A stretch of 64,000 bases of DNA, from NCBI GenBank assembly GCA_029010715.1, contig JAQXKZ010000015.1, positions 62,001-126,000 on the forward strand, read 5' to 3'. Below, piece after piece: positions 47,752-50,809 of this stretch. The notes under the pieces were generated by a model, which was not told where the DNA came from, searched no databases, and saw nothing but the letters and a program-made list of their open reading frames with translations. Each line of letters opens with the position of its first letter. The stretch's first letter is position 1. The translations under genes were made by a program, and so were the position numbers. The stretch is from Clostridiales bacterium (GTDB lineage Bacteria; Bacillota; Clostridia; Oscillospirales; Oscillospiraceae).

Positions 47752-48630
47752 TCAGAAGAGGGCAACGACGGAACCGTCATAGGTGTCGGTGATGAACTGC
47801 CTGACTGCGTCGCTCTGGAGAGCCTTTACGAGGGCCTGAATCTTCTCGCTGTTCTCATCACCGGCGCGGCAGGCGATCACGTTTGCATAGGTCTGGGCGG
47901 CCTGGCTGTCGGTATTCTCAACGGCGAGAGCGTCTTTCGCAACACTGTAGCCGGCCTGGAGAGCGTAGTTGCCGTTAATGACGGCGATGGTGCCTTCGTC
48001 GCTGTTCTTCAGCTGTGCGGGAACGGTGTCGGCCTGGACAGCCTGGACGTTGTAGCCGTGGTCATCGACGATATCGAGGGTAGTAACACCCGTTTCGAGG
48101 GAAGCGTCGGCGGGGAGTTCAATCAGACCCTCCTGCTGGAGCAGGAGCAGGGCGCGGGTGCCGTTGCTGTCGTCAGCGGGGATGAGGATGGTTGCGCCGT
48201 CGGGGACGTCAGCAATGCTGGAAACGCCGTTGCCGTAAATGCCGAAGGGCTCGTAGTGGATGAGCGCGGCGGAGACGAGGTCAGTACCGTTGGAGGCATT
48301 GTAGCTCTCGAGGTAGGGGCGGTGCTGGAAGTAGTTGGCGTCAAGGGTGCCTTCGGCGAGGGCCTGATTGGGCAGAACATAATCGTCATATACAACGATA
48401 TTGAGCTTGTAGCCGGCCTCTTCCAGAGGAGCCTTCACCTGCTCGAGAATCTCTGCGTGGGGAACGGATGTCGCACCGACAATGATTTCAGTAAGCTCGG
48501 TGGTGGCAGCAGGAGCCTCGGTGGTATCTGCAGCGGGAGCGGTGGTGGCAGCAGGGGCACTGGTGGAGCCGCAGGCAGCAAAGCTGAAAACAGCGGCGAG
48601 GGTCAGGATAAGAGTAATGATCTTTTTCAT
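47752..48630 (-). CDS. metQ: Methionine ABC transporter substrate-binding lipoprotein MetQ (NlpA family)
   Basis: 292 residues. Signal peptide with lipobox SFAAC (lipid-anchored Cys near residue 20), then an Ala/Thr-rich linker. The NlpA domain has the family features VGATSVPHAEILE, ANYFQHRPYLESYN, IPADDSNGTRALLLLQ and GNYALQAG. It captures D/L-methionine outside the membrane for MetNI. The site AAGGAGAT precedes the ATG. A gap of 147 nt, containing a hairpin and a tiny ORF, separates it from metI. Confidence 0.94.
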   Translation of the reverse strand: MKKIITLILTLAAVFSFAACGSTSAPAATTAPAADTTEAPAATTELTEIIVGATSVPHAEILEQVKAPLEEAGYKLNIVVYDDYVLPNQALAEGTLDANYFQHRPYLESYNASNGTDLVSAALIHYEPFGIYGNGVSSIADVPDGATILIPADDSNGTRALLLLQQEGLIELPADASLETGVTTLDIVDDHGYNVQAVQADTVPAQLKNSDEGTIAVINGNYALQAGYSVAKDALAVENTDSQAAQTYANVIACRAGDENSEKIQALVKALQSDAVRQFITDTYDGSVVALF

Positions 48631-48777: not shown

Positions 48778-49455
48778 TCATTTGATGCGCTTATCTGTTT
48801 TACGGGCTATATATGTTCCCACTATCTGGATTATCTGAACTATTACGACGGTCAGCAGCACGCATATCCAGGTTATATCGTCGTTGTTGCGCTGATGACC
48901 GTAGATGATGGCGATCTGACCGAGACCGGTACCGCCGATGGTGGCGGCCATTGCGGAGTAGCCAAGGATTGTGACCATGGAGATGACCGCGCCATGAATG
49001 AGCGAGGGCTTTGCTTCGGGGAGAAGTACACGTGATATGATCTGCATATTGGTACAGCCCATCGACTGGGCGGCCTCAATCACACCGAAGCTGACCTCCT
49101 TGACGGAGCTTTCAACCATGCGCGCCACATAAGGTGCGGCAGCAATGACAAGCATCACTATAACGGCTCCGTTGCCGAGACTTGTACCGATGATGAACTT
49201 TGCAACTGGGAGCATAGCGACCATAAGGATAATGAAGGGAATACTGCGGAAGAAATTGACGACGAATCCGAGCACACGGTTGAGCCACGGAGTCGGGCGT
49301 ATGCCGTTGGTGTCGGTGACGCAGAGGACAACGCCGAGGGGCAGCCCGATAAGATAGGCTATAAGAGAGGAGAGAAGGGTCATATAAATGGTCTCCCACA
49401 CGCCGAGCTGTATAAGGCCGTTATTCCAGAGCTTATAGAACATTTCGGAAAACAT
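48778..49455 (-). CDS. metI: Methionine ABC transporter permease MetI
   Basis: 225 residues, five TM helices of the binding-protein-dependent permease fold. The EAA loop is seen in EAAQSMGCTNMQIISRVLLPEA, and the N-terminal ETIYMTLLSSLIAYLIG is typical of MetI. The ATG overlaps the metN stop by 1 nt (TGATG), so translation is coupled. Confidence 0.95.
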   Translation of the reverse strand: MFSEMFYKLWNNGLIQLGVWETIYMTLLSSLIAYLIGLPLGVVLCVTDTNGIRPTPWLNRVLGFVVNFFRSIPFIILMVAMLPVAKFIIGTSLGNGAVIVMLVIAAAPYVARMVESSVKEVSFGVIEAAQSMGCTNMQIISRVLLPEAKPSLIHGAVISMVTILGYSAMAATIGGTGLGQIAIIYGHQRNNDDITWICVLLTVVIVQIIQIVGTYIARKTDKRIK

Positions 49456-50444
49456 CAGGCTTCCTCCTTCCAGGTCACAGGACTGTTTCTGAGCCAGGCG
49501 ATTACCTTGTCCGCCTGACGCTCGTCACTGGGCAGCTCAATTATCATGTGACCGTATATCGCACCGTCGAACTGGCGGGTATCGGCGAATATTATATTGA
49601 CCGGGGCCTGACATTCAAGCACAAGCTTGGAAATGATAGGTTCCTGAGAATACTGGCCGTTGAAGATGATACGCAGTTTCTTGCCGCCGGTAGTATCGAG
49701 TGCGGCGCGGTCCTGAGGAAGGATAAGCTGCTTGGCAATGTCCGACTGGGGATTGGTGAATACGTCGCTGACCCTGCCTTCCTCGGCGATGCGGCTGTGG
49801 TCAATGACGGCGACGCGGTCGCAGATCTGGTCGATGACCTTCATCTCATGGGTGATGACTATGATAGTGACGCCAAGCGTCTGATTAATGGTACGCAGCA
49901 GCTCAAGTATAGAACGGGTAGTGTTCGGGTCGAGAGCGCTTGTGGCCTCGTCGCAGAGCAGATAGCGGGGCTTGGTGGCGAGAGCGCGGGCGATCGCCAC
50001 ACGCTGTTTCTGGCCGCCGGAGAGCTGAGCCGGATAGGCATTGGCCTTATCCTCCAGCCCGACGATCTTCAGGAGCTCGACCGCGCGGGATTTTGCAGCG
50101 GGGCCCTTTACACCCGATATCTCAAGCGGAAAACACACGTTTCTCAGAACGCTGCGCTGTTCCAGCAGATTGAAACCCTGAAAGATCATCGAAATACTGC
50201 GGCGCATTTCGAGCAGTTCCCTGCGCGAAAGGCTGGTCATTTCCTTTCCGTCTATTATCACCTGACCCGAAGTGGGACGTTCAAGCAGATTGATGCACCG
50301 CACCAGAGTGCTTTTGCCGGCACCGGAAAGACCGATAATGCCGAATATCTCTCCGTCATTGATCTGCAGGTTTATATCCCTCAGTGCTTCTACAGTCCCG
50401 GAGGCAGAGGAGAAGGTCTTGCTCAGCTCGCGTATCTCTATCAT
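49455..50444 (-). CDS. metN: Methionine ABC transporter ATP-binding protein MetN with NIL domain
   Basis: 329 residues. Walker A GLSGAGKST, signature LSGGQKQRVAIARAL, Walker B YLLCDEATSALD and switch His in VITHEM are intact. The C-terminal 75 residues (KKLRIIFNGQYSQEPIISKL onward) are the NIL domain, which binds methionine and shuts the transporter by trans-inhibition. The start is the ATG at 50444 (MIEIREL) after AAGGAAG; an ATG 6 codons upstream is less likely. First gene of metNIQ, and preceded by the methionine-codon attenuator. Confidence 0.96.
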   Translation of the reverse strand: MIEIRELSKTFSSASGTVEALRDINLQINDGEIFGIIGLSGAGKSTLVRCINLLERPTSGQVIIDGKEMTSLSRRELLEMRRSISMIFQGFNLLEQRSVLRNVCFPLEISGVKGPAAKSRAVELLKIVGLEDKANAYPAQLSGGQKQRVAIARALATKPRYLLCDEATSALDPNTTRSILELLRTINQTLGVTIIVITHEMKVIDQICDRVAVIDHSRIAEEGRVSDVFTNPQSDIAKQLILPQDRAALDTTGGKKLRIIFNGQYSQEPIISKLVLECQAPVNIIFADTRQFDGAIYGHMIIELPSDERQADKVIAWLRNSPVTWKEEA

Positions 50445-50461
50445 TTGGCCGCTTCCTTTCA

Positions 50462-50507
50462 ATAAAAAAACGGGCCTGGAAAACTCACTTTGTTTTCCAA
50501 ACCCGTT
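50462..50507 (-). terminator. Attenuator terminator upstream of metN
   Basis: On the minus strand a continuous 16-bp stem (50507-50492 with 50484-50469, two G-U pairs) has a 7-nt loop and is followed by a T run. It lies 18 nt after the leader-peptide stop and 18 nt before metN, between the promoter and the operon it controls. Confidence 0.92.
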
Positions 50508-50525
50508 GTCAATTACAGTTCACAA

Positions 50526-50636
50526 TCAGCCGGATATGAAACAAGGCGAGTCATGTTTTTGAGCGCGCATCATCATGCACATGCCGAACATGTACATCAT
50601 ACCCATCATCATGCAGTTACCGGTGAGCTTACGCAT
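50526..50636 (-). CDS. Methionine-rich leader peptide of the metNIQ attenuator
   Basis: 36 codons. ATG at 50636 with AAGGAGA 8 nt upstream; stop TGA at 50528-50526. Codons 9-23 read MMMGMMYMFGMCMMM, so 10 of 15 are AUG; 11 of 36 residues are Met. The last codons contain CCTTGTTT (50546-50539) and TCCG (50534-50531), which can pair with AAACAAAG (50495-50488) and CGGG (50505-50502) in the 5' arm of the terminator, forming an antiterminator. A ribosome stalled on the Met codons would leave that segment free; one reaching the stop would cover it. This is the layout of trp/his-type attenuation, here with methionine. Confidence 0.88.
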   Translation of the reverse strand: MRKLTGNCMMMGMMYMFGMCMMMRAQKHDSPCFISG

Positions 50637-50667
50637 ATGACCCGTCTCCTTTTCTTAAGATGGCCTG

Positions 50668-50696
50668 ATTATATAACCGCCGCAAAAACTTGTCAA
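50668..50696 (-). promoter_or_regulatory. Perfect-consensus promoter of the metNIQ leader
   Basis: Minus strand TTGACA (50696-50691), 17-nt spacer, TATAAT (50673-50668). Predicted start near 50661, about 25 nt before the leader-peptide ATG. A strong constitutive promoter suits control by attenuation. Confidence 0.9.
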
Positions 50697-50809
50697 GAGA
50701 TAAAACAGAGTTTTTTTGATTTTATGTGTTAAAGAGAAAAACACAGGCGCGAGCCGCAGGGTTTTAGATAATACACATAAATTTTGACAGAAATCTGTAT
50801 AGGCAGTCC

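Follow-up and report, generated by a model that had tools for sequence, protein, structure and literature searches.

A probable transcription attenuator with methionine control codons upstream of metNIQ in Oscillospiraceae

Introduction

How is the metNIQ operon controlled in a 64-kb stretch of Oscillospiraceae DNA (the window, meaning the whole stretch analysed) in which a short open reading frame (ORF) crowded with AUG codons, followed by a terminator, stands ahead of the importer genes? Leader-peptide attenuation of the trp, his, leu and thr type is best known from Proteobacteria, and SAM riboswitches and T-boxes are the familiar controls of methionine genes in Firmicutes. Passages of PMC2965389 and PMC7058034 agree on this division. 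The original prediction for this locus was a transcription attenuator that uses methionine codons, of a class not known to have been described in Clostridia. The literature matches listed, whose scope leaves out most subscription papers, likewise contain no described class of methionine leader in Clostridia; a weak precedent does appear in a passage on Streptomyces lividans (PMC8079986).

Results

The leader carries the parts of an attenuator

All parts of the leader, as well as metNIQ, lie on the minus strand of the window:

50668..50696, minus strand: sigma-70-type promoter, TTGACA-17-TATAAT, matching the consensus at 12 of 12 positions
50651-50646, minus strand: ribosome site AAGGAG of the leader ORF, read from the sequence
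50636..50655, minus strand: segment A, the Shine-Dalgarno and start region of the leader ORF, which pairs with B (predicted duplex, own-partner test)
50526..50636, minus strand: leader ORF of 36 amino acids, MRKLTGNCMMMGMMYMFGMCMMMRAQKHDSPCFISG (translation; counterparts in relatives)
50568..50612, minus strand: methionine run, codons 9-23, AUG at 10 of 15 (codon count)
50577..50595, minus strand: possible, weakly supported hairpin in the methionine run, GUACAUG-UUCGG-CAUGUGC, perhaps a pause hairpin
50530..50555, minus strand: segment B, the last leader codons, predicted to pair with A (through 50555-50537) or with C and the loop (through 50550-50530)
50492..50507, minus strand: segment C, the 5' arm of the terminator, which together with the loop (to 50485) is also a partner of B
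50469..50507, minus strand: intrinsic terminator (C:D), 16 pairs including G-U, loop of 7, then a T tract
49455..50444, minus strand: metN, methionine-type ABC importer ATPase with NIL domain (TIGR02314 MetN is the best NCBIfam match)
48778..49455, minus strand: metI, permease (best match PRK10782 MetI, just below the cut-off)
47752..48630, minus strand: metQ, substrate-binding lipoprotein (best matches the MetQ/NlpA families, below the cut-off)

The AUG codons of the leader are numbers 9, 10, 11, 13, 14, 16, 19, 21, 22 and 23, and no other place in the six frames of the window has five or more methionines in 15 codons. Behind the ORF, a gap of 18 nt (50525-50508) leads to the terminator, in whose stem 7 of the 16 pairs are G-C. 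The original prediction had described a perfect promoter, a 36-codon ORF with this density of AUG, an 18-nt gap and a 16-bp terminator with a U tract followed by metN, and each survived recounting, the 16 pairs being reached when G-U is counted. The ORF thus combines, as leader-peptide attenuators do, a good ribosome site with many successive codons for the operon's own amino acid, the substrate being taken from matches below the curated cut-offs: MetN matches TIGR02314 with an E value of 8.5e-108 yet falls below the family cut-off, and because the matches of all three proteins do so, the substrate is assigned from family and operon.

MetN is the sole NIL match in its genome. No MetE or MetH domain (PF02574, PF01717) was found in that genome, which is 94.7% complete, and this suggests that the organism may be a methionine auxotroph; if it is, the switch ahead of metN would control its methionine supply.

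An Rfam scan of the window gave no match at or above a family cut-off. Neither a T-box (RF00230) nor a SAM riboswitch (RF00162) precedes metN in the window scan or in a lax scan of 50430-50720, where four matches at the leader are all far below their cut-offs. The claim that neither element is present therefore stands for the window, and the genome carries both elsewhere, namely one SAM riboswitch ahead of a metK-like gene and seven T-box matches, 2 of them above the Rfam cut-off, some followed by valS-, alaS-, tyrS- and pheT-like genes (gene names read from the sequence).

Methionine-dense leaders recur ahead of metN in relatives

Searching 60 relatives for MetN yielded 30 loci, of which 17 have a methionine-rich short ORF upstream of metN. 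A pattern of five spaced AUG codons matched 58 genomes among 102 species of the genus (46 leaders and 12 chance matches, by hand count), and five more leaders with another spacing were found (G002, G009, G015, G027 and G112), so that by hand count at least 51 of the 102 species have the leader. Of 71 Met-dense ORFs, a count that includes places met more than once, 67 have a met transporter gene no more than 1800 nt away; three of the other four are at contig ends and one is a chance ORF.

The pattern matched 60 of 394 genomes of the order, mostly by chance, with leaders before met transporter genes at L101, L102, L103 and L109 and a further leader, L100, that has no met gene within 1800 nt. 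Across the family, 67 of 120 genomes encode a NIL-domain protein, and 64 loci (including our own, and three without a readable MetN) yielded 17 clear and 3 weak leaders. The survey of the class covered 40 of 42 long-frame places, our own locus and one weak match being left out, and found one clear leader (L199), one weak leader (L193), SAM riboswitches at 10 loci and T-boxes above the cut-off at 2. A scan of named genomes gave 56 stretches (hand count): 48 come from records of uncultured Oscillospiraceae, Ruminococcaceae, Clostridiales, Clostridia, Eubacteriales or similar, several of which take their names from samples of animal gut; the other 8 belong to unrelated records of proteobacterial type. 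Outside the genus most pattern matches were rejected as chance or as a conserved exporter helix; those at L095-L099 (genus g50) fall in a conserved MSMMMMSMM stretch of a long exporter-like protein and are not leaders.

For comparative analysis we took Met-dense short ORFs (at least 6 Met in 15 codons) followed by a terminator, 78 leaders in all. Loci L001-L170 contain 130 such ORFs, of which 120 are followed by a terminator-like hairpin and represent 61 distinct leaders, 9 have no terminator (3 at contig ends, 6 judged outside a leader context) and 1 was dropped because of its start. From the later loci 17 of 20 leaders were kept; L230, L232 and L270, with 4-7 Met, were dropped as weak before testing. 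A promoter matching at least 10 of 12 consensus positions precedes 63 of the 76 leaders with enough upstream sequence, versus 1 of 76 shuffled stretches.

Several loci show variations of this arrangement. L070 (G077) has two met transporter operons in a row, with ORFs at 565 and 5027; each metNIQ copy has its own methionine leader of near-equal sequence, and the two MetN proteins are about 41% and 70% identical to that of the window. In L014 (G024), at about 266-390 with metN at 429, promoter, ribosome site and terminator are kept, little of the methionine run is left and the ORF extends into the terminator, so that this is either a decayed leader or an assembly collapse. A further short ORF with a shared CGAATGTG stands behind the terminator in L023 (after 355), L100 (after 624) and L142 (after 5596), positions being ORF ends on the reverse complement; by-eye translation has these ORFs end in NQRM-stop or NGRM-stop or continue NQRMCLC. 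This ORF is possibly a second leader, and in L023 and L142 it precedes metQ.

Methionine codons are kept while the rest of the peptide drifts

Start codons excluded, the 78 leaders contain 704 AUG triplets in frame and 39 out of frame. Selecting Met-dense frames favours such an excess, yet the runs recur at the same place across species. The first codon of the run is codon 8-10 in 64 of the 78 leaders and the last is codon 21-23 in 55. Among 43 pairs of similar leaders, 100 nonsynonymous and 24 synonymous changes precede the run and 67 and 24 follow it (raw counts, neutral ratio not included), which means that the methionine codons persist while most of the peptide changes.

This drift bears on whether the leader could encode an arrest peptide, in which the nascent Met-rich chain senses methionine or SAM and stalls the ribosome itself, a lack of Met-tRNA having no part in it. 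TnaC and SecM are arrest peptides with conserved nascent-peptide residues beyond their control codons. Here most residues outside the run change, the number and spacing of methionines vary as well, and in five leaders (L036, L079, L083, L084 and L092) a stop codon inside or just before B removes the peptide tail while B-like RNA continues behind it. The short-tailed leaders L023 and L109 have no clear B. A short motif, R/C-A-(Q)-(K/N), nonetheless follows the run in many leaders, including that of the window (50567-50556) and L199 from another family; its RNA is approximately GCGCNCAAAA, and the A-rich part is explained by neither of the two pairings described below. With this motif in its favour and the drift against it, we regard an arrest peptide as unlikely.

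The same counts address a structured RNA, either a ligand-binding riboswitch or a protein-binding site, of which the AUG repeats would be hairpin by-products. The hairpin in the run recurs in the predicted folds of many relatives (the window's own leader folds differently), and its partner letters show the A-C combination in 0 of the 54 leaders that share the common core. The run may therefore be constrained by RNA structure, although relatedness of the species makes this count weak evidence. Against this, the AUG triplets keep to one frame while other letters differ, and the Rfam scans found no family at cut-off; we consider a purely structural origin of the repeats very improbable.

Segment B follows its partners A and C through sequence change

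If the ORF is the sensor of an attenuator, a competing antiterminator should be kept as the sequence changes. In the window leader the predicted A:B duplex joins AGAAAAGGAGACGGGTCATA with CATGACTCGCCTTGTTTCA, and the predicted B:C duplex joins 50550-50530 with 50506-50485; the latter contains both stretches (50546-50539 and 50534-50531) that the original prediction had named as antiterminator pairs. For the relatives we defined A as running from 22 nt upstream of the ORF to 9 nt inside it, B as at most 52 nt behind the run and C as the 5' arm of the terminator plus its loop, and compared RNAduplex energies of own pairs with those of permuted pairs over 20,000 permutations. The B window was widened once, ahead of the test on representatives, and L009 was excluded for having too little upstream sequence.

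In 26 representatives below 70% identity, A:B energies were -20.1 for own and -15.0 for swapped partners (z -8.8, 0/20,000) and B:C energies -14.2 and -11.9 (z -4.7, 0/20,000). The pairings A:C, run:C and B:D were flat; because they share the same species relations, such flat pairings serve as controls. The pairing run:B, meant as a control, gave a signal (2/20,000). With definitions unchanged, 17 further leaders reproduced both results (A:B z -5.7, 0/20,000; B:C z -4.7, 1/20,000), with A:C, A:run and B:D flat and weak values for run:C (1095/20,000) and run:B (2100/20,000). Three of these 17 (L199, L193 and L101) had been inspected earlier and some are 70-77% like others; the 14 first inspected after the definitions were set gave 0/20,000 for A:B and 1/20,000 for B:C, and the 11 that remain when previously inspected leaders and near-copies are removed gave 0/20,000 and 7/20,000; in this repeat A:C, A:run and B:D were again flat and run:C and run:B weak. 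Tested singly, the distant L199, which belongs to a different family within the class, forms an A:B of 12 bp and a B:C of 9 bp, and in 7 of 15 leaders (L193, L101, L023, L109, L158, L025 and L145) neither pairing is clearly beyond shuffles.

The original prediction had called for the upstream regions of metN in relatives to be searched and their terminator and antiterminator checked for covariation. The search found AUG run and terminator kept and antiterminator pairing that follows sequence changes. On covariation the outcome is divided: the permutations over 26, 17 and 14 leaders speak for the antiterminator, and a column-wise count on a MAFFT alignment failed, with 54% of cells paired at the right register versus 32-54% when shifted, because the spacing between ribosome site and start varies. 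The predicted layout is also extended, in that the ribosome site of the leader itself makes up the 5' half of the switch and pairs with the segment behind the methionine run. The parts themselves, the in-frame AUG codons of relatives and the own-partner A:B and B:C pairing are shown at the level of sequence.

Modelled ribosome positions favour B:C when both the run and A are covered

To relate these pairings to translation, 60 leaders were folded with ribosome masks at the stage when C and the loop have been made and D has not, and the probability that C pairs upstream was taken. Its mean was 0.42 without a ribosome and 0.45 with a ribosome in the middle of the run and A free. With A masked as well, mean C-B pairing rose to 0.73, versus 0.15 for a ribosome at the stop codon; the stalled state exceeded the stop state in 59 of 60 leaders with A masked and in 51 of 60 with A free. 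The closeness of 0.45 to 0.42 means that the model separates stalled from untranslated leaders only if A is covered. We infer that, with one ribosome held in the latter half of the run, the start codon would be open to another, which would cover A. The A:B helix passes the own-partner test, and the protection it affords in the folding model is partial, as the value of 0.42 without a ribosome indicates.

When terminators were exchanged among the 26 representatives, foreign ones still reached 0.56, versus 0.71 for own ones, so part of the fit between B and C is generic. In most leaders B:C looks weaker than the complete terminator, and the switch would therefore have to be kinetic, as it is in classic attenuators. 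The stop codon lies 12-56 nt from the terminator stem in the 78 leaders (median 23), a distance at which, given the usual ribosome footprint, the terminator should stay accessible when a ribosome sits on the stop codon. Between ORF and first gene there is accordingly a terminator that should lie clear of such a ribosome.

T-boxes and SAM riboswitches stand at the same gene in other relatives

Rfam T-boxes precede metN at L013, L017, L018, L019 and L030, none of which showed a methionine leader, and all five carry GAACAUGG at the expected specifier position (an AUG specifier). A tree of 141 MetN proteins, from which L245 and L252 (repeats) and 10 loci (contig ends or no readable MetN) were left out, holds 54 with a leader, 18 with a T-box, 10 with a SAM riboswitch and 59 with none. 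With leaders labelled as at least 6 Met in 15 codons within 1320 nt, the label changes at least 18 times on the tree, 12 of these changes being forced by well supported branches. In an earlier MetN tree L013, with its T-box, stood beside L068, which has a leader, and L014 with its decayed one. Taken by themselves, the 98 family and class rows comprise 20 leaders, 12 T-boxes, 10 SAM riboswitches and 56 with none, the last count weighing against the attenuator reading. At L241 (305-564) and L244 (346-600), both on the minus strand, T-boxes lie behind metN, apparently before another gene of the locus.

That T-boxes occupy the equivalent place in relatives also bears on whether the leader might be conserved and yet unregulated, encoding a small Met-rich protein ahead of an ordinary terminator, with metNIQ using a start of its own. 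The terminator stands 100 nt or more before metN in some relatives (e.g. L006, L012 and L080), as such an arrangement would allow. A segment that follows both A and C, and a peptide that is not conserved outside its methionines, fit it poorly, and we give this explanation very little credence.

Discussion

The metN leader is very probably a ribosome-mediated transcription attenuator with methionine control codons, as the original prediction proposed; the AUG runs, terminators and own-partner pairing of relatives support that reading, and the response to methionine is predicted from them. By every part visible in its sequence it should work like a trp or his attenuator. The leader ORF would be translated while the RNA is made. 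With charged elongator Met-tRNA plentiful, the ribosome would reach the stop codon and cover B, C:D would form and metNIQ would be off; with charged elongator Met-tRNA scarce, it would stall in the AUG run and leave B bare, so that B:C pairs and metNIQ is transcribed. In an untranslated leader B would pair with the ribosome-binding site (A), favouring termination. What we infer in this scheme is that the ribosome stalls, which way the switch responds and what A:B does.

A more specific proposal, which we put forward tentatively and hold to be possible though doubtful, is that in a class of clostridial methionine attenuators B acts as a shuttling anti-Shine-Dalgarno segment, shared by the leader's ribosome site and the terminator arm, such that the switch reads occupancy at both ends and is interchangeable with a T-box. 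It would be on only with the start occupied and the end empty, that is, with ribosomes queued on the AUG run. Since translation also starts at AUG, complete absence of methionine would block initiation and shut the switch, which would then answer to elongator Met-tRNA shortage within a limited range. Leader and T-box would be able to replace each other as sensors at one gene, and the tRNA-Met species they read may differ.

The mechanism is known, and the novelty lies in the amino acid, in the clade and in a first strand supplied by the ribosome site of the leader itself. For trpL, pairing between the ribosome site and leader RNA downstream of it was reported earlier, so the ribosome-site geometry may not be wholly new. 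If the methionine leader holds up in at least half of the genus's species and in other families of the class, methionine would join the list of amino acids sensed by attenuation. It is a hard case, because the amino acid being sensed is also needed to start the leader.

The metN leader shares with the classic trp, his, leu and thr leaders a translated codon-rich ORF, alternative hairpins and a terminator, and differs from them in that its control codon, AUG, is also a start codon, its control codons sit within the loop closed by the 1:2 helix, in which the ribosome site forms the 5' strand, and its target is an importer. The same shared design appears, in passages of the respective papers, in the Leu-rich ilv attenuator of Staphylococcus aureus (PMC5794164) and in the His leaders that replace T-boxes in Bacilli (PMC2965389), a replacement like that seen among relatives of the metN leader. 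The closest positional counterpart is the metL leader proposed before metNIQ in S. lividans, likewise a short ORF with some methionine codons; unlike the metN leader it encodes 29 amino acids with two internal methionines (by the printed sequence) and is leaderless, its authors report that a typical Rho-independent terminator is missing, and the passages of PMC8079986 do not deal with its conservation. For Actinobacteria generally, a passage of PMC1262725 reports no conserved RNA structures before methionine operons.

The SAM (S-box) riboswitch, absent from the window leader, is common before metN elsewhere in the class. Methionine T-boxes, described at met operons of S. aureus (PMC3771891) and Lactococcus lactis (PMC7058034), resemble the metN leader in tying met genes to Met-tRNA charging through a terminator, and stand before metN in its relatives; unlike it, they act without translation, through direct binding of uncharged tRNA. 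For the S. aureus met T-box a preference for initiator tRNA is reported (PMC3771891), whereas AUG codons inside the metN leader ORF are read by elongator Met-tRNA. The exchange of leader and T-box at one gene among relatives offers a natural comparison of two sensors of tRNA charging.
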